The translations under genes and the position numbers were made by a program. Of a stretch of 53,190 bases of DNA, positions 11,647 through 41,119 are shown piece after piece. The notes under the pieces were generated by a model, which was not told where the DNA came from, did no database searches, and was given only the letters and a program-made list of their open reading frames with translations. How positions within the stretch are numbered: position 1 is the stretch's first letter; each line of letters opens with the position of its first letter. This DNA is from Magnetococcales bacterium (GTDB lineage Bacteria; Pseudomonadota; Magnetococcia; Magnetococcales; Magnetaquicoccaceae), in NCBI GenBank assembly GCA_015231915.1, contig JADGAR010000024.1, positions 1-53,190 of the forward strand, in the 5' to 3' direction.

Positions 11647-14600
11647 ATGAAAATCCTGCCATGGCTCGCCAATTTATTCAAACACGACGAACCCAGACCG
11701 CCCCCGCCACCACCAGCAACACGTACCAACCTGGCCCTGCGCCTGGAAAAAAGGCTGATGTTCGACGCATCGGGCGTACTGACCGCCATCGCGGCGCTCC
11801 ATCACGACCCGCACGGGGATGGCGGCGATCATGGCGCAGACCATGACGGCGATCACACCGGCTTTGCCCCCCCCCAACCCGACGACGCCTCTCCCTCCCC
11901 CAGGGAGATGATCTTTGTCGATCCCACGGTGGAAAACCATGAAGCCCTGCTCAAGGATCTGCCGCAAAACGCCCAGGTGGTGATGCTCGACCCCCACAAG
12001 GACGGCGTGGAACAGATTCGCGCCGCACTGGCGGGCCACTCCGGCATCCAGACCCTCCACATCGTCTCCCACGGCAGCGCCGGCTACCTGGAACTGGGCG
12101 GCTCGGAACTCGACGTGGTCAACCTGGAATCCCGTGCCCAGGCGCTGCAGGACTGGGGCACGGCGATGTCGGAAAACGCCGACATCCTCATCTACGGCTG
12201 CGATGTCGGAGACGGACTGGAGGGCGGGGCCTTCGTCACCCGCATGGCAGAACTGACCGGGGCCGACGTGGCCGCCTCCAGCAACCTCACCGGGGCCTCG
12301 GCGCGCGGCGGCGACTGGATCCTGGAAATCCATTCCGGCACCATCGAGTCCAACATCTTTCTCTCCGGGCAGGCGCGCATCGAATACACCGGCATCCTCC
12401 CGTCAGCCAACCCCATCCTGGCCAACGTGCATGGCGACTCCCTGGCCTACGCGGAAGGTGGCGGCGCCGTGGTGATCGACCAGGGGGGCAACGCCACGGT
12501 GACCGATGCCGACAACATCAACTTCTCCGGGGGCGCCCTGACGGTCGCCATCACCACCAACCGGGATGCCACCGAGGATGTGCTGGCCATCCGCAACCAG
12601 GGGACCGGCGCGGGTCAAATCGGACTCTCCGGGGCCAACGTCACCTATCAGGGCACCGTGATCGGCACCTTCGCCGGAGGAACCGGAACCAACGACCTGA
12701 CCGTCTCCTTCAACGCCAACGCCACCGCGACGGCGGTCTCGGCTTTGCTGCGCAACATCACCTACACCAATACCGATACCACCACCCCCACGACCAACAC
12801 CCGCGACATCTCCTTCTCCATGACCGATGGCAGCGGCGGGGTTTCCGGCACATCGATCGCCGGCGTGACGGTCTCGGGTGTCGATGACGCCCCCACCCTC
12901 ACCGCCGGGGCCACCCTCAACTACACGGAAAACAACGCAGCCACGGTCATCGACGCCTCCATCACCGTGGCCGACGTGGACAGCACCAACATGCAAAGCG
13001 CCACCATCACCATCTCCGGCAACTACCAAAGCGCCGAAGATGCGCTGGTCTTCACCAATACCGCCAACATCACCGGCACCTGGAACGCCGCCACCGGCAC
13101 CCTGACCCTGACCGGAACCGACAGCAAGGCCAATTATCAAACCGCGTTGCGCTCGGTGAAATACGTCAACTCCAGCGACGCCCCCACCACCACCCCGCGC
13201 ACGGTGGCCTTCCAGGTCAACGACGGCACCTCTGCCAGCACCGCCGCCACCGCCACCATCAACATCGCCGTGCTCAACGACGCCCCAACCCTGACCGGCA
13301 CCCAATGGTTCACCCCATCCGTCGAGCGCACCGATACCACCAATGCCGGCGCGGTGGTCTCCAGCCTGTTTGCCGCCGGCGACATCACCGATCCCGACGC
13401 CGCTCCCCAGTCGGGCATCGCCATCTACTCCCGCAACAACAACGGCCTCGGCTCCTGGCAATACCGCATCGACGGCGGTGCCTGGCAAAACCTGCCAGGC
13501 GGCCTCAACCCCAACCATGCCCTGCTGTTGAAATCCACCGATGAAATCCGCTTCCGACCCAACAACTCGGGCGGCGGTCAGCCCACCCTCTCCTTCTACG
13601 CCTGGGATCGCAGTGACGGCGGCACCCCCGGCAACCAGGTAGATGCATCGATACGCGGCGGCACCACCGCCTTCAGCATGGCTTCCGGCACCATCAACGG
13701 CACGGTCAACGCCGCCCCGGTCCTGGATACCTCCACCAGTGTCGCCATGCCCACCATCACCGAGGACGCCCTGACCAACACCGGACAAGTGGTCAGCACC
13801 CTGGTGAGCGGCCTGATCAGCGATATCGATACCGCCTCCCAGACCGGCATCGCCATCCAAAGCGCCTCCACCAGCAACGGCGCATGGCAGTACTCCACCG
13901 ACGGCGGGACCAACTGGTCGAACGTCGGCACCGTCTCCACCGCGCAATCGCTCCTGTTGCGCTCCACCGACCGAGTCCGTTTCCTGCCCGATGGCATGAA
14001 CCCGCCCAACAACACCGCGCCAGGCAACCTCAACTTCACCTTCGTGGCCTGGGACAGCACCGGACAATCCTCCACATGGAGCGCCGGCAGCAAGGTCTCC
14101 ACCGCCTCCCGCGGCCTGGCCACCCCCTTCTCGACCAGCGTGGAAACCGCCGACATCGCCGTCACCAACCTCAACGACGCCCCGGTCATGACCGCCATCG
14201 CTCCGGTTATGCCGACCATCCAGTATACCGACACCAATAACGCCGGCATCACGGTTTCCAGCCTCGTGGGCGCATCCATCGCCGACGTGGATGCGGTCAC
14301 CGCCCCGCAAGAAGGGATCGCGATCTACTCGATCAACAACGGCACCGGCTCCGGCTTCTGGGAGTTCTCCACGGACAACGGCGCCACCTGGACCGCCACC
14401 GGCGCGGTCAACGGCACCTCTGCCCTGCTGCTGCGCGCCCAGGACAAGATCCGCTTCCAGCCCAACACCCTCACCACCAACGACGCCGCCAGCTTCAGTT
14501 ATTACGCCTGGGACCAGACGCAAATCGCCGGAGGACAAGGGACCAAAACCGATGTCTCGACCCGCGGCGGAACCACGGCCTTCTCCAGCGGATCGGACAC

Positions 14601-17600
14601 GGCCAACATCAACATCAACGTCGCACCCACCATGGATCCAGCAGGCACCCCCACCCTGCCCACCATCACCGAGGACATGACCACCAATACCGGAGCGCTG
14701 GTCTCCACCCTGCTGAGCGGGGCCGGCGATATCGACGTGGGGGCATCCAGTGGCCTGGCCATTTATGGCCTGACCAGCGGCAACGGCACCTGGCAGTACA
14801 ATACCGGTTCCGGATGGGTCAACATCGGCGCGGTCAGTTCCACCTCCGCCCTGCTGCTGCGGGATAGCGATTCGATCCGCTTCGTGCCCAACGCCATCAA
14901 GGCCACCTCCGGCACCCTCTCCTTCTACGCCTGGGACCGCACGTCAGGGACGTTCGGCACCAAGGTGGATGTCTCCACGCGCGGCGGCACCACCGCCTTC
15001 AGCACCACCGGCGAAACCGCCAGCGTCACCGCCACCGAGATCAACGACACCCCCACCCTGACCGTCGGCGGGAGCTTCACCTTCACCGAAGGGGGGGCCG
15101 CCACCGCCGTCAAGAACACCCTCACCCTGTCGGATGTCGATGACAGCAACATCGCCGGTGCCACGGTTCGCATCACCTCCAATTACGTTTCCGGCGAGGA
15201 TGTGCTCTCTTTCACCAATCAGGCCGGGATCACCGGCTCCTGGGATGCCGCCACCGGCACCCTGACCTTGACCGGCACGGCCACCAAGGCGCAATACCAG
15301 ACCGCCCTGCGTACCGTCGCCTACCAGAACATCACTACCGCCCGACCCAGCGTGGCCAGCCGAACCGTCACCTTCACCATCACGGACGGCAACTCCGACG
15401 GCACCGGGGCCGGCGCCCTGACCGCCTCCGCCACCCGCACCATCGCCATCGCCGCCGTCAACGACGCCCCGACCCTGAGTGCCACAATCGCCCCGTTGAG
15501 CATCACCGAAGGAGATGCCGCCACGACCCTGGACAGTGGCATCAGCCTGGCCGATGTGGACGACGCCAACATCACCGGCGCCACGGTACGCATCACCGGC
15601 AATTATTTATCCAGTGAAGATGTGTTGTCTTTCACGAATCAATTGGGCATCACCGGTTCCTGGAACGCCGCCACCGGCCAGTTGACCCTCTCCGGGACTG
15701 CCAGCAAGGCCGATTACCAGACCGCGCTGCGCGCCATCACCTATCAGAACACCAATTCCGACAATCCGAGTGTCGCCTCCCGCACCGTCACCTTCACCAT
15801 CACGGACGCCAACTCGACGGGTGAAGGGGCCGGCGCCCTGACCGCATCTGCCACCCGCACCATCACGGTCGCTGCGGTCAACGACGCCCCCACTTCCTCG
15901 ACCACCGTCGCCGCCCTCTCCTACGCCGAGGACAGCGTGGCAACCGCCGTGGACAACGGCTTTTCCCTGGCCGACGTGGACGATGCCAACATCGCCGGGG
16001 CCACGGTGCAGATTACGGGGAATTATTTTTCCAGCGAGGATCTCCTGTCATTCACCAATCAATCCGGTATCACCGGCTCCTGGAACGCGGCCACCGGCAC
16101 CCTGACCCTGACCGGTACGGCCACCAAGGCGCAATATCAAACCGCCCTGCGCTCCATCGGCTACACGAACACCAACCACGACACCCCCAACCTGGCCACG
16201 CGAACCGTCACCTTCATCGTCACCGACACCAATTCCAATGGTCAGGGCAGCGGCGCCCTTGCGGTCACCTCCACCCGGGATATCGTGGTGCTCGCGGTCA
16301 ACGACGCTCCGGGTGTTGCCACCACGGCAGCCCCCCTGGCCGTCACCGAGGGGAATGCCGCCACGATTCTGGACTCTGGCATCAGCCTGACCGACGTGGA
16401 CGACGCCAACATCGCCGGGGCCACGGTGCAAATCACCGGTAATTATCTCTCCAGCGAAGATGTTCTCTCGTTCACCGATCAGGCCGGCATCACCGGTTCC
16501 TGGAATGCTGCCACCGGCACCTTGACCCTCTCCGGGACCGCCAGCAAGGCCGCCTATCAGGCCGCCCTGCGCTCCATCACCTATCAGAACACCAACTCCG
16601 ACAATCCGAGTGTCGCCACCCGCACCGTCACCTTCTCGGTCACCGATACCAATTCGAATGGGGAAGGGAGCGGCGCACTCACCACCACCGCCACCCGCGA
16701 CATCACGCTTGCCGCTGTCAACGACGCCACCGGCATCACCACCACCCCCACCCCACTCGACTACCAGGAAAGCGCGATCACCGCTGTGGACGACAACCTG
16801 AGCCTGGCGGATGTGGATGACGACACCATCGTGGGCGCAACCGTAAAAATCACCAGTAATTTCCTCGCCAGCGAGGATCAGTTGATCTTCAACAATCAAT
16901 CCGGAATCACCGGAACCTGGGACGCCGCTACCGGAACGCTGACCCTGACCGGCACCGCCAACAAGGCCACTTATGAAACCGCCTTGCGCTCGATTGGTTA
17001 CCTCAACAGCAATGACGCCAACCCCTCGACCGCCCTCCGCACCGTCACCTTCTCGGTCACCGACGGCAATTCGAACGGTGAAGGAAGCGGCGCGCTCACC
17101 ACCACCGCCACCCGCGACATCGTCGTCAACGCGGTCAACGATGCCCCAGGCGTCGTCACCACCTCCACCCCCCTGATTGTGGCGGAAGGCGACCCGGCCA
17201 CCCCGGTGGATCCGGAGTTGAGCCTGTCCGATGTGGATGACGACAACATCGCCGGGGCCAGCGTGCAAATCACCGGTCGCTATCTCGCCAGCGAGGATCT
17301 GCTCTCTTTTACCAACCAGGCCGGAATCACCGGCTCCTGGAACGCCACGACAGGTACGTTGACGCTGACCGGTACCGCCAGCAAGGCCGCCTACGAGGCC
17401 GCGCTGCGCTCCGTCAACTATACAAACACCAACAACGCCGCCCCCATGGCCGGCGCCAGGACCATCACCTTTTCGGTCACCGACGCCAACTCGAACGGGG
17501 CAGGATTGGGTGCGCTCACCACCACTGCCACCCGCGATGTCGTGGTGAATGTCGTCAACGACACCCCGGAAATCGCCACTTCCCCGGAGGTGACGCGCTT

Positions 17601-18966
17601 CACCGAGGGAGACGCACCCGTGGTCATCGATGACGGCATCCGCATGATCGACGCCGACGACGATTTGATCCGTGGTGCCACTGTCCGCATCTCCGGCAAT
17701 TTTCTCGCCAGAGAGGATGTTCTCTCTTTCACCGATCAGGCCGGCATCACCGGCTCCTGGAACGCCGCCACCGGTACACTGACCCTCTCCGGGTCCGCCA
17801 GCAAGGCCGTCTATCAAGAGGCCCTGCGCACCGTGACCTATCAGAACACCAACGACTACAACCCCAGCCTGGCCAGACGGGTCGTGACCTTCTCGATCAC
17901 GGACAGCAACTCCAACCAGCAGGGGCAAGGCGCTCGCACCTCCAGCGCCACCCGCGAAATCCTGCTGCAAGGGGTCAACGATGCCGCGCGCTGGAACGGC
18001 GAACCGCTGCCCGCGCCCACCGGAATCGCCGGAGACCCCCTGGAATTCGCCTTCGCTCCGGAACGCCACCTGCCCGATCTGGACTCTGCGACCGTCCGCT
18101 ACACGATGGGCGCCCTGCCCGCATGGCTCCAGTATGACGCGGAGGCCAAACGGTTCGTTGGTCTGCCTCCGGTCGGCGAACGCGGTGTGCATGCCATCTC
18201 CTTCACCGCCACCGACAACGAAGGGGCGAGCACCACCCTTGTTTTCAACCTGACCATCGAATTGCCGCCACCCCGCGTCGCGGAGGCGCAAAGCCCGAAC
18301 GCCAACACGGACGCCACGGTCCCGGAAAAGGAGGTCGAGGCCTCCCAGGCAAGGCTGGCGGTTGGCACCGGTCGTCCGGACCCGATCCAGACTGCGGATA
18401 TGCAACCCTCGCCCACGGGCATTGCGCCGGAGCGACCCCACATCCCGGATCATCCGGTGGATGGGGCGGCCCGCTTCGTCTTCTCCAGGGTGAACGAGAG
18501 CGAAGCTGCGACCGGCAACGCCGTCATGATCACCGATGCGGCCAGGGAAGAGTCCGTGCGCGGCGACCAAGCCCTGGAGACCCAACTGCGTGCCATGGGC
18601 ATGGGAGAACTGGGGGCCGGTGACGAAGACTTTCTCAGCCAACTCCAGGCCAGGGTGGCGGAACTCGCCAACGAGCAGGACGAAGAGTCCGGCGGTGACG
18701 AAACGGGGAACGACGCAGCCGCCAACCATGCGGAACTCAAGGTTGGCACCACCCTGCGGGATAACAATGCCCAGATCTACATGCCGCCCATCCCCAACGA
18801 TGATGAAAAGAGTCAACGGGGCGTCGCCGGATACGGCGCCACCGAGGCCCGCGGGGAGGAACGCGGGATGCCCGGCCTGACCAGCCAGTTGAACGCCTAC
18901 GGTCCCAAGGCCTTCCACGCCGAATTGCAGGAGTTGATGCGGACGGTGAAAGATGCCGTAAATTAA
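11647..18966 (+). CDS. Giant repetitive surface protein with DUF4347 domain and cadherin-like repeats
   Basis: This 2439-residue protein has no classical signal peptide. Near residue 33 is the motif LEKRLMFDAS, resembling the LEPR-xLL motif at the start of many large exported proteins, after a proline run. Residues about 89-248 form a DUF4347 domain (FVDPTVENHEALL...LHIVSHGSAGYLELG...DILIYGCDVGDG), whose His and Cys recall caspase-like (CHAT/C80) folds. Then come a linker repeat (252-413), one type A repeat (414-548), four type B repeats (549-1133), seven type A repeats of 140 residues (1134-2110), a dystroglycan-type cadherin-like domain (2110-2206, ending FTATDNEGASTTLVFNLTI) and a non-repetitive acidic tail. 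The protein is very rich in Thr, Ala, Asn and Asp, as calcium-binding adhesins are. The adaptor/protease/flippase genes that follow are the likely export or anchoring machinery. Confidence 0.85.
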   Translation: MKILPWLANLFKHDEPRPPPPPPATRTNLALRLEKRLMFDASGVLTAIAALHHDPHGDGGDHGADHDGDHTGFAPPQPDDASPSPREMIFVDPTVENHEALLKDLPQNAQVVMLDPHKDGVEQIRAALAGHSGIQTLHIVSHGSAGYLELGGSELDVVNLESRAQALQDWGTAMSENADILIYGCDVGDGLEGGAFVTRMAELTGADVAASSNLTGASARGGDWILEIHSGTIESNIFLSGQARIEYTGILPSANPILANVHGDSLAYAEGGGAVVIDQGGNATVTDADNINFSGGALTVAITTNRDATEDVLAIRNQGTGAGQIGLSGANVTYQGTVIGTFAGGTGTNDLTVSFNANATATAVSALLRNITYTNTDTTTPTTNTRDISFSMTDGSGGVSGTSIAGVTVSGVDDAPTLTAGATLNYTENNAATVIDASITVADVDSTNMQSATITISGNYQSAEDALVFTNTANITGTWNAATGTLTLTGTDSKANYQTALRSVKYVNSSDAPTTTPRTVAFQVNDGTSASTAATATINIAVLNDAPTLTGTQWFTPSVERTDTTNAGAVVSSLFAAGDITDPDAAPQSGIAIYSRNNNGLGSWQYRIDGGAWQNLPGGLNPNHALLLKSTDEIRFRPNNSGGGQPTLSFYAWDRSDGGTPGNQVDASIRGGTTAFSMASGTINGTVNAAPVLDTSTSVAMPTITEDALTNTGQVVSTLVSGLISDIDTASQTGIAIQSASTSNGAWQYSTDGGTNWSNVGTVSTAQSLLLRSTDRVRFLPDGMNPPNNTAPGNLNFTFVAWDSTGQSSTWSAGSKVSTASRGLATPFSTSVETADIAVTNLNDAPVMTAIAPVMPTIQYTDTNNAGITVSSLVGASIADVDAVTAPQEGIAIYSINNGTGSGFWEFSTDNGATWTATGAVNGTSALLLRAQDKIRFQPNTLTTNDAASFSYYAWDQTQIAGGQGTKTDVSTRGGTTAFSSGSDTANININVAPTMDPAGTPTLPTITEDMTTNTGALVSTLLSGAGDIDVGASSGLAIYGLTSGNGTWQYNTGSGWVNIGAVSSTSALLLRDSDSIRFVPNAIKATSGTLSFYAWDRTSGTFGTKVDVSTRGGTTAFSTTGETASVTATEINDTPTLTVGGSFTFTEGGAATAVKNTLTLSDVDDSNIAGATVRITSNYVSGEDVLSFTNQAGITGSWDAATGTLTLTGTATKAQYQTALRTVAYQNITTARPSVASRTVTFTITDGNSDGTGAGALTASATRTIAIAAVNDAPTLSATIAPLSITEGDAATTLDSGISLADVDDANITGATVRITGNYLSSEDVLSFTNQLGITGSWNAATGQLTLSGTASKADYQTALRAITYQNTNSDNPSVASRTVTFTITDANSTGEGAGALTASATRTITVAAVNDAPTSSTTVAALSYAEDSVATAVDNGFSLADVDDANIAGATVQITGNYFSSEDLLSFTNQSGITGSWNAATGTLTLTGTATKAQYQTALRSIGYTNTNHDTPNLATRTVTFIVTDTNSNGQGSGALAVTSTRDIVVLAVNDAPGVATTAAPLAVTEGNAATILDSGISLTDVDDANIAGATVQITGNYLSSEDVLSFTDQAGITGSWNAATGTLTLSGTASKAAYQAALRSITYQNTNSDNPSVATRTVTFSVTDTNSNGEGSGALTTTATRDITLAAVNDATGITTTPTPLDYQESAITAVDDNLSLADVDDDTIVGATVKITSNFLASEDQLIFNNQSGITGTWDAATGTLTLTGTANKATYETALRSIGYLNSNDANPSTALRTVTFSVTDGNSNGEGSGALTTTATRDIVVNAVNDAPGVVTTSTPLIVAEGDPATPVDPELSLSDVDDDNIAGASVQITGRYLASEDLLSFTNQAGITGSWNATTGTLTLTGTASKAAYEAALRSVNYTNTNNAAPMAGARTITFSVTDANSNGAGLGALTTTATRDVVVNVVNDTPEIATSPEVTRFTEGDAPVVIDDGIRMIDADDDLIRGATVRISGNFLAREDVLSFTDQAGITGSWNAATGTLTLSGSASKAVYQEALRTVTYQNTNDYNPSLARRVVTFSITDSNSNQQGQGARTSSATREILLQGVNDAARWNGEPLPAPTGIAGDPLEFAFAPERHLPDLDSATVRYTMGALPAWLQYDAEAKRFVGLPPVGERGVHAISFTATDNEGASTTLVFNLTIELPPPRVAEAQSPNANTDATVPEKEVEASQARLAVGTGRPDPIQTADMQPSPTGIAPERPHIPDHPVDGAARFVFSRVNESEAATGNAVMITDAAREESVRGDQALETQLRAMGMGELGAGDEDFLSQLQARVAELANEQDEESGGDETGNDAAANHAELKVGTTLRDNNAQIYMPPIPNDDEKSQRGVAGYGATEARGEERGMPGLTSQLNAYGPKAFHAELQELMRTVKDAVN
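13291..15045 (+). repeat. Four type B repeats in the giant surface protein
   Basis: Four units of irregular length (about 430-474 bp) share the pattern SSL-x-DIDA-x-QSGIAIYS, then WQY(S/R)TDGG, LLLRSTD-x-IRF-P, FYAWD and STRGGTTAFS. They are more diverged from one another than the type A units. Confidence 0.8.
15046..17980 (+). repeat. Seven type A cadherin-like repeats, 420-bp period
   Basis: The marker S(S/G)EDxLSFTNQ-GITGSWNAATG recurs with its codons at 15193, 15613, 16033, 16453, 16870, 17290 and 17710, giving spacings of 420, 420, 420, 417, 420 and 420 bp. Each unit starts with NDAP and contains ADVDD-N, LTL(T/S)GTA(S/T)KA and R-VTF-(I/V)TD. One further related unit lies earlier, at about 12886-13290. 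DNA identity is high enough that recombination or slippage could change copy number. Confidence 0.9.
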
Positions 18967-18971
18967 TGGCA

Positions 18972-19035
18972 CATGGATTGCTTTCGATCATTGAGATGGT
19001 TTCCCCCAGGATCTCGTGACCGAAAGCAATCCATG
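18972..19035. promoter_or_regulatory. Long inverted repeat between giant gene and secretion genes
   Basis: Perfect 15-bp arms CATGGATTGCTTTCG (18972-18986) and CGAAAGCAATCCATG (19021-19035) enclose an inner stem GAGAT/ATCTC (18993-18997 with 19011-19015) and a C-rich loop. The right arm contains the ATG of the first adaptor gene and the left arm another in-frame ATG. No T-run follows, so it is not a standard terminator. In RNA it would bury the start codon, which suggests translational control or an mRNA stability element separating the giant gene from its transporter. Confidence 0.75.
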
Positions 19036-19806
19036 ATCGCATCCTTTGTCCGCATTGCGCGTTTTTTGTTTGTTGCCCTGTTGCTGTCGGGTGCTCCCCT
19101 GGTGGTGTCCGCCGGTCAGGATATGAACGCGCGCACGGAGATCCGCGCCTATCTGGTGCCCCGGACCCATACCACCCTCTCATCCCACATCGACGCCGAG
19201 ATCCAACGCCTGCCGGTCCAGGAAGGGAGCGCCTTTGCCGCCGACGCCCTGCTGGTGGCCTTCGACTGCGCCACGCTTGCGGCCCAGCACGCCAAGGCCA
19301 AGACCGCCCTGCATGCGGCAGAGGAGAAACATCGGGTGGTCCAACGTCTGGCAGAACTGCACTCCGTGGGAACCCTGGAGGCCGACGCCAGCCGCGCGGA
19401 TCGCGACCAGGCCGAAGCGGATGTGAAACTGCACGAAACCCGGTTGCGTGGATGCCGGATTTCCGCCCCCTTCGCCGGACGGGTCGGCACGCTCTCGGTG
19501 CGGGAGCGCCAGTATGTCACCACCGGGCAGGCGCTGATGAAGATTCTCGATCATCGTCACCTGGAGATGGAGATGATCGTCCCCTCCCGCTGGCTGGGCT
19601 GGCTGCAACCCAAGACCAAATTCACCATGCATATCGACGAGACCGGCAAGGAGTACCCCGCGCAGGTGGTACGCCTGGGCGCGGAGGCCGATCCGGTGAG
19701 CCAGTCCATCAAGATCGTTGGCGCCTTGATGGGAGACCATCCGGACCTGGTCCCCGGCATGAGCGGTGCGGCCATTTTCACGCCCCCCGGCGGGAACGGG
19801 AAGTGA
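19033..19806 (+). CDS. Periplasmic adaptor (HlyD/RND membrane-fusion) protein
   Basis: This is a 257-residue membrane-fusion-type protein with a signal peptide (MIASFVRIARFLFVALLLSGAPLVVSA). A split lipoyl/barrel-sandwich domain flanks a short helical hairpin (ALHAAEEKHRVVQRLAELHSVGTLEADASRADRDQAEADVKLHETRL), followed by the return strand CRISAPFAGRVGTLSVRERQYVTTGQALMKIL and a beta-barrel region. Such adaptors bridge inner-membrane exporters and TolC-type channels. ATG 19033 starts the signal peptide; the upstream in-frame ATG 18973 would add 20 unlikely residues. Both ATGs lie in a strong hairpin and neither has a good Shine-Dalgarno sequence. It lies 66 bp after the giant gene and 3 bp before the next adaptor, so export of the giant protein is the most likely job. 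Confidence 0.8.
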   Translation: MIASFVRIARFLFVALLLSGAPLVVSAGQDMNARTEIRAYLVPRTHTTLSSHIDAEIQRLPVQEGSAFAADALLVAFDCATLAAQHAKAKTALHAAEEKHRVVQRLAELHSVGTLEADASRADRDQAEADVKLHETRLRGCRISAPFAGRVGTLSVRERQYVTTGQALMKILDHRHLEMEMIVPSRWLGWLQPKTKFTMHIDETGKEYPAQVVRLGAEADPVSQSIKIVGALMGDHPDLVPGMSGAAIFTPPGGNGK

Positions 19807-19809
19807 GCC

Positions 19810-21165
19810 ATGGCGGTTCAAGGGGAAAAACTGATCCTGGGATTGAGCGCCCTGCTGCAACTGGGCAAACGGGCCTTTGCCGCCGAAGACGAGGCGGCAT
19901 TCGGCTTTCTGGTGGTCAACGAAACCCACCTCATGACCCCCTATCGACAGGCGGTACTGTGGCGGCATGTCGAATTCAAAACCGGCGAGGTGGTGGCGCT
20001 GTCCGGCTCACCGGATCCGAGCAAGCGGGCACCCTATGTCGCCTGGCTGACACGGCTCTTCTCCCTGGAAAAGTTGACCAAACAGAAAGTGCCGCTCTGC
20101 CTGACCTCCGCCGATCTCCCCGGTGAGGACGGAGAGGCATGGGAACAGTGGCTGCCCGCGCATGCGGTCTGGGCGCCCCTGACCACCGGACTCGGCAACC
20201 GGATGGGGGGGTTGCTGCTGGTCAAATCGGTCCCCTGGACCGATCCGGAACTCAAGCTGCTCGCCAAACTGGCTGACGCGTATGCCAACGCCTGGGAACT
20301 GGTGCGCAAACGCGCCCAGACAAAGGGCATCCCGTGGCGCAACATCCTGACCAAACAACAAGGCCGCATGCGCCTGGGTGTTGCGCTGCTGTTGTTCATG
20401 CTCTGCTGGGTGCCGGTGCGGGAATCGGCGCTGGCCCCGGCCACGGTGGTGCCCAGCCGTCCCACCCCGGTACGCGCGCCGCTGGAAGGGGTGGTGGAGC
20501 GACTGCATGTGGAACCCAATCAGCCGGTCAAGGCAGGGGATCTGCTCTTCACCATGGACGAGGCGGTCCTGGAAAACAAACTGGAAGTGGAAAAACAGGC
20601 CGGCGCCATGCTCCAGGAGGAGTATCTCCAGATCCTCAAGCAGGCGGTCACCAACCAGGAAAGCCGCGCGCAGAAACGGATCCTGGAAAAACGGATCGAC
20701 AAGCAGGCCGCCGAAAGCAACGGGGTGCGCATCCTCCTGCAACGGACGCGGGTGACCGCTCCGGAGGAGGGCGTGGCCATCTTCACCGACGCCAATCACT
20801 GGCGGGGCAAACCGGTGATGACCGGAGAACGGGTCATGGAGATCGCCGATCCCAAGGCCGCCGAACTGGAGGTCCGCCTGCCGGTCAACGATGCCATTGC
20901 CTTCGGCAACGGGGCCGGGGTGACGCTCTACCCGAACATGGATCCGCTCGCCACCTGGTCAGGCACCGTCATCCGCATCGGCTACGAGCCGCAGGAAATG
21001 GAAGGGGTCCTTTCGTATGCCGTTCGCGCCTCCTTTGCGGGTTCGGTCGAGCCGCCACGCATCGGTCTGCGTGGCACGGCCAAAATCCAGGGAGAGCGGA
21101 CCACGCTGTTTTATTATCTCTTCCGGCATCCGCTTTCGCTGCTGCGGCAGCGGTTGGGCCTGTGA
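19810..21165 (+). CDS. Membrane adaptor with N-terminal GAF-like domain and HlyD-type domain
   Basis: The 451-residue protein has an unusual order. Residues about 1-180 look like a cytoplasmic GAF-type domain (FGFLVVNETHLMTPYRQAVLWR...WAPLTTGLGNRMGGLLLVK). One membrane helix follows (MRLGVALLLFMLCWVPV, near 190-207), then a periplasmic HlyD-like part with two barrel-sandwich halves (VRAPLEGVVERLHVEPNQPVKAGDLLFTMDEAVL and TRVTAPEEGVAIF) around a coiled coil. A cytoplasmic sensor linked through the membrane to an export adaptor could gate secretion. It is coupled to neighbours: 3 bp after the first adaptor, and its stop overlaps the GTG of the next gene. Ligand and partners are unknown. Confidence 0.75.
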   Translation: MAVQGEKLILGLSALLQLGKRAFAAEDEAAFGFLVVNETHLMTPYRQAVLWRHVEFKTGEVVALSGSPDPSKRAPYVAWLTRLFSLEKLTKQKVPLCLTSADLPGEDGEAWEQWLPAHAVWAPLTTGLGNRMGGLLLVKSVPWTDPELKLLAKLADAYANAWELVRKRAQTKGIPWRNILTKQQGRMRLGVALLLFMLCWVPVRESALAPATVVPSRPTPVRAPLEGVVERLHVEPNQPVKAGDLLFTMDEAVLENKLEVEKQAGAMLQEEYLQILKQAVTNQESRAQKRILEKRIDKQAAESNGVRILLQRTRVTAPEEGVAIFTDANHWRGKPVMTGERVMEIADPKAAELEVRLPVNDAIAFGNGAGVTLYPNMDPLATWSGTVIRIGYEPQEMEGVLSYAVRASFAGSVEPPRIGLRGTAKIQGERTTLFYYLFRHPLSLLRQRLGL

Positions 21166-23294
21166 ACGAAGCCTCTCCTCCGGAAAGCGGTCGCCCCCCG
21201 CCGCTGCGCGAGGAGTTGCATCTTTTTCCCGGCCCGCGCACCCCGGAGGGATCCCCGACCTGGACCTTGCGCGATCCGGCCAACAATCAATTCTATCGTC
21301 TGGGGTGGCGCGAGTTCGAAATTTTGTGCCGCTGGCGACGCGGGGCGCCGGCGCGGATCGCCGAACTGGTCTCGACGGAAACCCCTCTGGAGGCCACCGC
21401 CGGGGATGTGCAGGAGTTGGTGCGCTTCCTGCTGGGGGCCAATCTGCTGCGTCCCCAGGGGGAACGGGGGCTGGAGCGGCTGACCAACAACTACCGCTCC
21501 AAACAACAATCGATTTTGCAAAAAATCCTCCACGCTTATCTCTTCTTTCGCATTCCCTTGTTCGATCCGGATCGGTGGCTGCAAAAAACCCTGCCGTGGG
21601 TGCGCTGGGCGTTTTCGAAAAAATTCTTTCTCGCCAGTGGGATCGCGGGGTTGATGGGGTTGCATTTCATCACACGGCAGTGGGAAATCGCCATTGCGAC
21701 CTTCAGCGAGACCGACATGGTGACGGAAGTGATGTTCATCACCCTGGCCATGTTTCTCACCAAGGCGATCCATGAACTGGGCCATGCCTATGCCGCAGTA
21801 CGCTACGGGTGCCGGGTTCCCACCATCGGCGTGGCGTTTCTGATGCTGCTGCCGGTGTTGTATACCGATACCAGCGAGGTGTGGAAGGTGGCGTCCCGTC
21901 ATCGACGCCTGGTGGTGGCCGGGGCCGGGATCGTCGCCGAATTGCTGTTGACCGCCTGGGCCTCCCTGCTGTGGGGGCTGCTGCCGCCAGGCGGGACCAG
22001 GGACGCCTTGTTCTTCCTGGCCACGGTGAGTTGGATCTCCACCCTGGTGTTGAACGCCAGCCCGTTCTTGCGCTTCGACGGCTATTATCTGTTCTCCGAC
22101 TGGCTGGGGATCGACAATCTGCACGACCGGGCCGGCGCCCTGGGACGCTGGAAACTGCGGGAGATCCTGCTGGGGCTGGGCGCCCCGATTCCCGATGCCG
22201 CGCTCTATGCCCGACGCCGGCTGTTGATTCTCTTCGCCTGGGTCACCTGGGTCTACCGGTTCTTTCTCTACCTGGGGATTGCCCTGGCGGTTTATCATTT
22301 GTTCTTCAAGGCATTGGGGATGATTCTGATGGCGGTCGAGATCGGCTGGTTTCTGGTGCGACCGGTGGTGAGCGAGTTCAAGGCGTGGTTCCGGCCTGGA
22401 TCCGGACTGCGCATCAACCGCCGGGTGGTGTTTTCCCTGCTGGTGCTGTGCGGCGTGCTGGGCGCGCTCGCCGTTCCCTGGCACGCCACGGTGCAGGCCC
22501 CGGCCATGCTGGAGCGATCCGAGCGGGTCACTCTGTTCTCCCCGGCTCCGGCGCGCATCCGCGAGGTATTTGTCCGGCATGGCCAGGAGATGCTGGAAGG
22601 GGCCGTGCTCATGCAACTGGACGCCCCGGACCTGGACAATCAGCTGGAAATCTTGCGACATAAAATCGACCTGTCGTTATGGAAACTCCAGTTTCGCGGC
22701 ACGGATCCCGACTTGCTGAAACACTCCCCGATCAACGACAAGGAGTTGGAGGTGGATCTGGCCCAGTATCGGGAGTTGCAACGTCAACAGAAGAGGCTGA
22801 CCGTCACCGCCCCCTTTGCCGGCTGGGTGTCGATGCCCAACCGGGATCTGGTTCCCGGGGTGTGGCTGGCCAACAACGAACCCCTGATGGAGATCGCCCA
22901 TCCGGAGCAATGGCACCTGACCGCCTACGTGCGGGAGAACGACCTGATGAACATCCGCCCCGGCAACGAGGCCCGTTTTCTGGCGGACTCCATGGATTGG
23001 GCGCCGATTGCGGCCCGCATCGCCACCATCGCCCCCCTGGGGGCCACCACTTTGGAGGAGATTCCCCTGGCCAACCAGTACGGGGGGAACGTCCCGGCGC
23101 GCAAGGACGACAAGGGACACTTCATCCCCACCACGGCGGTTTACCGGGTACGTCTGCACCCCACCGATCCCTTTCCCCAGCCGCCCCACATGCTGCGCGG
23201 CAGCGTGGTGATGGAATCCCACATCGCCCGCAGCCTGCTGTCGCGGATCCAACGTGAGGCGATGGAAATCCTGGTGCGCGAGACCGGCCTGTGA
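21162..23294 (+). CDS. M50 (site-2) metalloprotease-like membrane protein fused to HlyD-type adaptor
   Basis: The 710-residue protein starts at GTG 21162, overlapping the previous stop (GTGA). An N-terminal PqqD-like or winged region (about 1-120) precedes a polytopic M50 domain with HELGH at residues 204-208 and a downstream NASPFLRFDGYY whose Asp (near 306) is the expected third zinc ligand. After several helices comes a periplasmic HlyD-like half: VTLFSPAPARIREVFVRHGQEMLEGAVLMQLD, a coiled coil, LTVTAPFAGWVSMP and a barrel. Fusions of this type occur near peptide or large-protein export genes, but their mechanism is not well described. It could process the giant protein or its anchors within the membrane while forming part of the export conduit. 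Confidence 0.8.
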   Translation: MNEASPPESGRPPPLREELHLFPGPRTPEGSPTWTLRDPANNQFYRLGWREFEILCRWRRGAPARIAELVSTETPLEATAGDVQELVRFLLGANLLRPQGERGLERLTNNYRSKQQSILQKILHAYLFFRIPLFDPDRWLQKTLPWVRWAFSKKFFLASGIAGLMGLHFITRQWEIAIATFSETDMVTEVMFITLAMFLTKAIHELGHAYAAVRYGCRVPTIGVAFLMLLPVLYTDTSEVWKVASRHRRLVVAGAGIVAELLLTAWASLLWGLLPPGGTRDALFFLATVSWISTLVLNASPFLRFDGYYLFSDWLGIDNLHDRAGALGRWKLREILLGLGAPIPDAALYARRRLLILFAWVTWVYRFFLYLGIALAVYHLFFKALGMILMAVEIGWFLVRPVVSEFKAWFRPGSGLRINRRVVFSLLVLCGVLGALAVPWHATVQAPAMLERSERVTLFSPAPARIREVFVRHGQEMLEGAVLMQLDAPDLDNQLEILRHKIDLSLWKLQFRGTDPDLLKHSPINDKELEVDLAQYRELQRQQKRLTVTAPFAGWVSMPNRDLVPGVWLANNEPLMEIAHPEQWHLTAYVRENDLMNIRPGNEARFLADSMDWAPIAARIATIAPLGATTLEEIPLANQYGGNVPARKDDKGHFIPTTAVYRVRLHPTDPFPQPPHMLRGSVVMESHIARSLLSRIQREAMEILVRETGL

Positions 23295-24523
23295 CCCATG
23301 CGCCGCCTGGGGAGCGCCATTCGGCCTTCGTGTTCTCCTTGGTCATCGTACTGGTAGGGTTGTGTGGTCGCACGATCATCGAAAAGGCACTGGCCATGCG
23401 CGGCGGCACCGAGGCCGTGGCGTTGTGGGGGCAGGTTGGCTCCCTGGTGGATCTGCTCTCCGGGGTGGGATTGGCCGGCATCGGCGTAGGCGTGACGGTG
23501 CTGGTGGCGGGCGAAGGCCGTATCGGGCATCGCCGGGGGATTCTTTATACCGGAGTGGCTGTGGGATTGCTGCTGTCCGGCCTGTTGCTGCTGGTGGTGG
23601 AGCGCCATCCCGGTTTTTTGGTGGCGATGGTGGACGGCCTGCTGCCCCCGGAGTTGTTGCGCCTGGCCACCTTGGCCGGAATGCTGACGATTGTGCCGGG
23701 GGTATTGACCGGCTACTGGCAGGGTCTGGGCAGGCGGCGACTGCTGTTGGGCTGGGCGGTATTGGTGGTGGTATTGACCCTGATCGCGGTGTTCTGGCCC
23801 GGCGGCACTCCGCTGATGGAGCGGCTGTTGTGGGCGCAGATCGTGCCGGCGCTGGCGGTGGCCGGTGTTTTTTGTTACCGGTTCATGCGCCATTTTCGCG
23901 ACATTGCCTGGCAGGAGACGTGGCGGCCTTTGCTGCGTTTCGCGCCTGTGGGGATCTCGATCGGCCTGCTGAGTCCCTTTTCCTCGTTGTTGATGCGCTC
24001 GCGGTTGGCGGAACTGCTCTCCTGGCACGACGTGGGGATGATTCAGGCGCAATGGCGCATCATCGAGTGGGTGACGGCTTTGGCGAGCGGGGTGATGGTG
24101 TATCATTATCTCCCGATGTTGAGCGCCGCCGAGGGGGAGGCGTTCTTTCGGCAATTGCGGCGCATGGCCCTGGCGACCCTGGCTCCTGCCGCGTTCCTGA
24201 TGATTTTTTTTATTGTTTTTCAAAATACGATCACACGGTTCTTCTATCAATCCGGCTTCGCCCTGCCCCTGCCAACCGCCATGATGTTTCTGCTGGGCGA
24301 CTGGATCCGCGTAGTGGCGTGGGTGTTCTTGTACGCCCTCTACGCCCGCCGCCAGACCGTGGCCATCACCTGGGGCGAATTTTTATCGCTGCCGCTGTTC
24401 ACCGCCCTGCTGTGGTTCGTGCCCGGCCCGCTGCTCCCCTGGCAGGTAGGGGGGTTGTGGGTGATCAGCTATTGTGCGTATGCCGCGTTCAATGGCTGGA
24501 TGGTGGTCAGAAAGGAACGGTAA
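23291..24523 (+). CDS. Polysaccharide flippase-like (Wzx/MVF superfamily) membrane protein
   Basis: The GTG start at 23291 overlaps the preceding stop (GTGA). The 410-residue protein is almost entirely hydrophobic with roughly ten to twelve predicted helices and resembles O-antigen/lipid-linked oligosaccharide flippases (N-terminal FVFSLVIVLVGLCGRTIIEKALAMRGGTEAVALWGQVGSLVDLLSGVGLAGIGVGVT; a PVGISIGLLSPFSSLLMRSRL helix in the middle). Sequence features of this superfamily are weak, so another transporter is possible. Its place as the last gene of the giant-protein export operon is striking: it might flip a glycan donor used to decorate the surface protein, or a lipid needed for export. No glycosyltransferase lies in the same operon. 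Confidence 0.65.
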   Translation: MTHAPPGERHSAFVFSLVIVLVGLCGRTIIEKALAMRGGTEAVALWGQVGSLVDLLSGVGLAGIGVGVTVLVAGEGRIGHRRGILYTGVAVGLLLSGLLLLVVERHPGFLVAMVDGLLPPELLRLATLAGMLTIVPGVLTGYWQGLGRRRLLLGWAVLVVVLTLIAVFWPGGTPLMERLLWAQIVPALAVAGVFCYRFMRHFRDIAWQETWRPLLRFAPVGISIGLLSPFSSLLMRSRLAELLSWHDVGMIQAQWRIIEWVTALASGVMVYHYLPMLSAAEGEAFFRQLRRMALATLAPAAFLMIFFIVFQNTITRFFYQSGFALPLPTAMMFLLGDWIRVVAWVFLYALYARRQTVAITWGEFLSLPLFTALLWFVPGPLLPWQVGGLWVISYCAYAAFNGWMVVRKER

Positions 24524-41020: not shown

Positions 41021-41032
41021 AAAGACACAGTG

Positions 41033-41119
41033 CCGAGGTGGCGAAACTGGTAGACGCACCAGACTCAAAATCTGGCGGCCGCGAGGCCATGTCGGTTCGA
41101 CTCCGACCCCCGGTACCAA
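41033..41119 (+). tRNA. tRNA-Leu (anticodon CAA)
   Basis: The 87-nt sequence folds as a class II tRNA. The acceptor arm is 5' GCCGAGG with 3' CCCCGGT, the anticodon stem CCAGA/TCTGG holds CTCAAAA with anticodon CAA at 41067-41069, the long variable arm lies at about 41076-41090, the T arm is GTCGG-TTCGACT-CCGAC, and the CCA end is encoded, with A73 as required for leucine. It reads UUG codons. In the acceptor stem A5 faces C68 (mismatch) and G1 faces U72. Confidence 0.95.

Follow-up and report, generated by a model that had tools for sequence, protein, structure and literature searches.

The genes directly downstream of a giant DUF4347 surface protein in a Magnetococcales bacterium probably form a dedicated, envelope-spanning export cassette for such giants, in which a fusion of an M50 membrane protease with a HlyD-type adaptor (M50-HlyD) would replace the ABC, RND or MFS transporter as the hub. 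The cassette lies in the window, the whole stretch of 53,190 nucleotides that was analysed, which belongs to a genome of 4.0 Mb in 133 contigs. It is widespread and apparently undescribed: as the earlier note on this DNA had supposed, no characterisation of the M50-HlyD/giant set was found in the part of the open-access PMC literature that was searched, nor any link there between the N-terminal motif of the giants and M50-HlyD genes.

The default assignment for giant repeat proteins in Gram-negative bacteria is usually type I secretion. If the reading above is right, many of them would belong to a different, membrane-protease-centred machine and could be told by a motif of ten residues at the N-terminus. 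A function could then be proposed for families that are anonymous at present, namely the LEPR-XLL proteins, the DUF4347-linked adaptors and short SecA-like proteins, the last of which are currently annotated as helicases or prepilin peptidases.

The giant gene and its downstream neighbours

The locus contains the following features (positions are those of the window):

11647–18966, + strand: giant surface protein, 2439 aa, the presumed cargo
11743–11775, + strand: N-terminal LEKRLMFDASG of the giant, an instance of the LEPRxLFD[G/A] motif and presumed route tag (sequence and association)
11911–12399, + strand: DUF4347 domain of the giant, residues 89–251, E 4.5e-55
15147–17866, + strand: tandem array in the giant, about 6.5 copies of a 420-bp (140-aa) extracellular-type repeat
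18865–18963, + strand: C-terminal GLTSQL...GPKAF element of the giant, related to the G[RK]xGLSxQL of cassette-linked giants
18973–19806, + strand: small HlyD-type periplasmic adaptor, HlyD_3 E 2.9e-16, with a hydrophobic N-terminus
19810–21165, + strand: TM-HlyD adaptor (cytosolic domain, TM segment, HlyD)
21162–23294, + strand: M50-HlyD fusion, with Peptidase_M50 and HlyD domains and a putative PqqD-like N-terminal domain
21186–21491, + strand: putative PqqD-like (RRE-type) domain of the fusion (PF05402 in homologues, profile-profile alignment, model)
21771–21785, + strand: HELGH zinc-protease motif of the fusion, residues 204–208
23291–24523, + strand: flippase/MATE-like protein, 4-bp overlap, weak WzxE match (E 8e-5)

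The sequence and an ORF check bear out all five open reading frames of the earlier note, which had read a giant DUF4347 gene and four coupled genes between 11647 and 24523. The true start of the M50-HlyD gene is the GTG at 21162, which overlaps the preceding stop by 4 bp, and the small adaptor likely starts at 19033. The genes downstream of the giant overlap or nearly abut, and are therefore likely to form a single transcript. Both an ABC ATPase and an outer-membrane channel are absent from the set at this locus. Within the giant, LEKRLMFD occupies residues 33–40, and a Kyte-Doolittle scan reveals neither a hydrophobic signal peptide nor a TM segment. The second adaptor, previously described as GAF-TM-HlyD, has the TM-HlyD arrangement, but a GAF domain is undetectable by Pfam or PDB sequence search in the window's own protein and is found by Pfam only in homologues from a sister branch of the cassette. 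Elsewhere in the window lie a cobalamin riboswitch (1148–1382, 107 bits) and a tRNA-Leu(caa) (41032–41118).

The M50-HlyD fusion has the residues of an M50 site-2 protease, HExxH and the Asp of the second motif (residue 306), which are invariant in 25 sequences. The HELGH motif is intact, as had been claimed, and among the 25 relatives its H, E and H do not vary, whilst one G varies to A or S. The predicted structure (mean pLDDT 85) comprises an N-terminal β-β-β-α-α-α domain, a polytopic M50 domain and a periplasmic HlyD domain. In the window's own fusion, a PqqD domain (PF05402) is matched neither by Pfam nor by PDB sequence search; PF05402 is over the cut-off in two sister-branch homologues, and the N-terminal profile of the sister branch aligns with that of the window's branch (profile-profile E 8.6e-7). 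Via these homologues, the N-terminal domain of the fusion can be assigned transitively as PqqD-like. A Foldseek search with the whole model returns matches filled by HlyD adaptors and is uninformative on this domain.

The closest named M50 relatives of the fusion are the daptide leader proteases (model NF041824, E 3.6e-41, 141.6 of 300 bits, below cut-off), and a weak match is also obtained with the YydH/LiaK model (NF058609, 32.7 of 225 bits, below cut-off). Homology to these leader proteases extends over the M50 core and partly into the N-terminal domain; unlike them, the fusion stays below the family cut-offs, is joined to HlyD and comes without a peptide precursor gene. The PqqD-like domain, the intact M50 residues and the daptide kinship together support a role of the hub in both reading and cutting a leader, as far as sequence can indicate.

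DUF4347 is predicted to adopt a clan CD (caspase/CHAT)-like fold. The best match of its model (pLDDT 93.8) is a DUF4347 chain solved as part of the Hcp3-Tce1 complex (9qpe_G, Z 12.7), followed by SAVED-CHAT (Z 8.6) and by caspases and Craspase (Z about 7, a value that is weak on its own). His142, followed by Gly, comes after one strand and Cys185 after a later strand, as in clan CD peptidases; the Cys is conserved in 21 of 21 sequences and the His in 19. Judging from the model, the giants may carry a cysteine protease domain of their own. Another DUF4347 protein of the same genome (L020, contig C119, 8417–12643) ends in a caspase (Peptidase_C14) domain, and relatives of it with similar C-terminal sequence are found beside cassettes in other Magnetococcales (L066, L086 and L093), with a CHASE2-like gene downstream by our own reading of the sequence.

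Conservation of the cassette in two branches

With four M50-HlyD paralogues of the window's genome as queries, 80 loci were retrieved from many orders, in which the order giant, OEP/TolC, small HlyD, TM-HlyD, PqqD/M50/HlyD recurs. Open reading frames were called by a simple script, which makes the neighbour counts coarse, and the counts mix related genomes and incomplete MAGs. Among the 41 loci whose upstream side spans 6 kb or more, a TolC-type channel stands beside the M50 gene in 32, TM-HlyD is present in 36, and a protein of at least 800 aa is encoded within five genes in 33 (including L062, where it is on the opposite strand); the eight loci with no giant within five genes count against an export role. 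The channel is missing locally in the window and its closest relatives, a Magnetococcales subfamily, and other M50-HlyD sets of the window's genome adjoin an OEP gene (e.g. contig C97, with DUF4347, OEP, TM-HlyD and M50-HlyD). The earlier statement that neither an ABC ATPase nor an outer-membrane channel is encoded therefore holds for this locus, but not for the loci at large, given the frequency of the channel. The flippase, which had been counted as part of the set, drops out of it: tblastn against all loci recovers it in one near relative only (two copies of the same contig).

The cassette extends across Proteobacteria and Nitrospirota. Its hosts include tractable bacteria (Azospirillum, Magnetospirillum, Cupriavidus), and it is also found on plasmids of Azospirillum and of enteric bacteria. 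In NCBI annotation the same gene order appears in Azospirillum brasilense, where the giant is a DUF4347 protein, in Niveispirillum and Kosakonia, and on an E. coli IncF plasmid, the fusion being named merely an adaptor subunit in these records. The IncF plasmid holds a complete cassette with a 4457-aa DUF4347 giant (L255, 325–20070), and 24 of 5426 complete E. coli genomes match the cassette. One contig labelled as a Mycobacterium sp. MAG (L036) has a cassette close to that of Methylocapsa and is probably mis-binned.

Co-occurrence was assessed in 349 genomes of the phylum, with counts read from listings by the analyst; DUF4347 is present in 89 of them and M50-HlyD in 89. When the window's own order is left out and only close M50-HlyD proteins (E below 1e-120) are considered, DUF4347 is found in 27 of 32 genomes with the fusion versus 18 of 269 others (Fisher p 1e-21, which ignores kinship and is inflated by related genomes). 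In four of the five exceptions (G082, G192, G221 and G297) a giant nonetheless stands next to the cassette, although three of these giants are truncated by the edge of the locus; the fifth (G202) has no giant on its contig. DUF4347 and M50 hits are adjacent in most genomes for which both coordinates are listed. The M50-HlyD set thus travels with giants, as the earlier note had anticipated.

The sister branch consists of M50-HlyD proteins at a greater distance (E about 1e-70 to 1e-91); it separates from the window's branch (type A) in a quick M50 tree, and in the loci read its genes, too, stand beside giants. A SecA-like ATPase, 650–730 aa long where complete, adjoins 21 of 23 sister-branch M50 genes. 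It contains SecA DEAD motor, preprotein-binding and P-loop domains (Pfam PF07517, E 7.5e-89; PF21090; PF01043), and its Walker and DEAD motifs are invariant in six sequences. The label "ATPase-free", given to the set beforehand, is accurate for the genes of the window's branch but not for this one. Nearly all type A-only genomes checked show a single SecA of housekeeping length, and three Methylobacter loci have a gene for full-length SecA immediately downstream of the cassette. In SecA-branch cassettes, a small DUF3467 protein is encoded between giant and adaptor (L251, 9389–9694; L257, 12614–12895).

In SecA2 or accessory Sec systems, a shorter SecA-like ATPase, additional to the first, acts on certain large surface proteins. 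The sister branch resembles these systems in its short SecA-like ATPase tied to large surface proteins, but it is Gram-negative and has M50-HlyD and HlyD partners, and no accessory SecY is seen in its annotated cassettes.

Motifs of the giants and the export route

The LEPRxLFD motif, matched upstream of DUF4347 as the regular expression LExRx[LMFIV][FLYW][DS], is present in 25 of 29 DUF4347 proteins of cassette genomes versus none of 24 elsewhere (12 informative genomes). By this split, the motif rather than DUF4347 tracks the export route. DUF4347, by which the earlier note had named the cargo, is ruled out as the signal: the domain also occurs without the cassette, in proteins that have either nothing ahead of it or a hydrophobic, Sec-like N-terminus, one of which ends in a GlyGly-CTERM-like tail.

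The motif also differs between the branches. Giants of the window's branch carry LExRx..D[GA] and those of the SecA branch [LM]ExRx[LM]LS[GA][ED], the eighth position being D with type A cassettes and S in the SecA branch. Where both cassettes occur in a single genome (G303), each is accompanied by the variant of its branch. Among records outside those that defined the rule, FD or YD is found in five plasmid-borne cassettes of type A, and LS in the SecA-branch cassettes of Mesorhizobium and Pontibrevibacter, whilst the annotated cargo start in Alisedimentitalea shows no motif. A genome with a distant M50 protein and no SecA-like neighbour (G186) has a cargo with the LFS variant. As motif variant matches machine variant, the two form a testable cargo code. 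The NCBI names for the Pontibrevibacter proteins are LEPR-XLL protein for the cargo and PqqD family protein for the hub. LEPR-XLL proteins share the [LM]EPRxLLS motif and that of Pontibrevibacter sits in a SecA-branch cassette, whereas the motif of the window is the LFD variant.

Near the C-terminus, G[RK]xGLSxQL is found in 25 of the 50 genes that immediately precede a cassette versus 5 of 501 other genes, having been discovered and counted on the same data. It is less certain than the N-terminal motif, because an HMM trained on the 80 loci gave only weak hits in a small test set (E 3e-6 to 0.06).

Proposed mechanism and competing readings

From these sequences we infer the direction of transport and the following steps. 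The PqqD-like domain of the fusion would read the LEPRxLFD[G/A] tag of the cargo in the cytosol, by analogy with the recognition of RiPP leader peptides. A SecA-type ATPase would push the unfolded chain, a dedicated one in the sister branch and probably the housekeeping SecA in the window's; the latter energy source is a guess, since none of this branch's own genes encodes an ATPase. The M50 site would trim the leader at the membrane, and the three HlyD adaptors would carry the chain out together with a TolC-type channel, which another locus of this genome would provide. The C-terminal GxxGLSxQL element would act late, in release or retention. Whether all this amounts to a new Gram-negative secretion system of two branches, defined by a PqqD-M50-HlyD hub, a LEPRxL(FD or LS) tag, power from SecA or a dedicated SecA-like ATPase rather than an ABC transporter, and cleavage of the leader by the hub's own protease, we regard as an evenly balanced question.

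The cassette might instead process, retain or release a giant that crosses by another route, a role comparable to that of LapG/LapD on LapA. M50 enzymes are classical site-2 proteases, DUF4347 is itself a predicted protease-like domain, and the conserved C-terminal element could be a retention or release site. This reading is nonetheless unlikely. With an outer-membrane channel and three adaptors, the cassette normally has what makes up a conduit, and in the sister branch a SecA-type motor is present as well; a recognisable type I ABC protein is missing from several cassette genomes, and the giant of the window lacks a Sec signal.

It is rather improbable that the giants leave by ordinary type I secretion, using an ABC ATPase encoded at another locus of the genome. 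Curated type I ABC models (LssB, PrtD, HlyB) give matches above cut-off in 30 of 42 cassette genomes, which speaks for this route, but in none of the other 12, the window's genome included. Nine of these 12 (two of them less than 90% complete), among them the single-contig G082, have only generic exporter-like matches, and the window's genome encodes two type I-like ABC proteins that fall below the cut-off. Generic ABC exporters are present in nearly all genomes, which counts against the export-hub reading, and a generic or sub-cut-off ABC protein could serve the giants. However, no type I ABC gene is seen inside a cassette, the few ABC-signature genes in the 80 loci being outside it, and DUF4347 proteins without the cassette lack the LEPR motif.

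Compared with type I secretion (LapBCE, HlyBD-TolC), the cassette shares a HlyD-type adaptor (although the type_I_hlyD model stays below cut-off), a TolC-type channel (in related loci, though absent from the window's own) and a giant repeat cargo without a Sec signal. It differs in that no ABC ATPase is encoded with cargo or adaptor, that M50 is fused to the adaptor and that the LEPR tag is N-terminal. Tripartite efflux pumps (RND, MFS, ABC; PMC8277102) have an inner-membrane part, an adaptor and an outer-membrane factor in common with the cassette, in which, however, the inner-membrane member is Peptidase_M50 in place of an ABC, RND or MFS transporter, and the linked gene encodes a giant protein.

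It is very improbable that the M50-HlyD set merely lies near a giant and serves the maturation and efflux of a RiPP-like peptide: the fusion does match the daptide model, and weakly YydH/LiaK, and PqqD-like domains bind leader peptides, but no recurrent precursor peptide or modifying enzyme is present in the cassettes read, and the conserved partner in most lineages of both branches is a giant protein.

Several further loci of the window's genome adjoin these subjects. GT41/TPR (OGT-like) glycosyltransferases stand beside two of its M50-HlyD cassettes (L015, 257–4665; L016, 8442–10631), and the giants may be glycosylated. A third, divergent M50-HlyD set (L018, contig C14, about 21% identity) has HlyD and OEP genes and, on its short contig, no SecA-like gene. 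On contig C117 (L019, 1–9154), a DUF4347 gene is divergent from genes that, by our own reading, encode an OEP fused to Cds6_C and a GspE-like ATPase, possibly a different export set.
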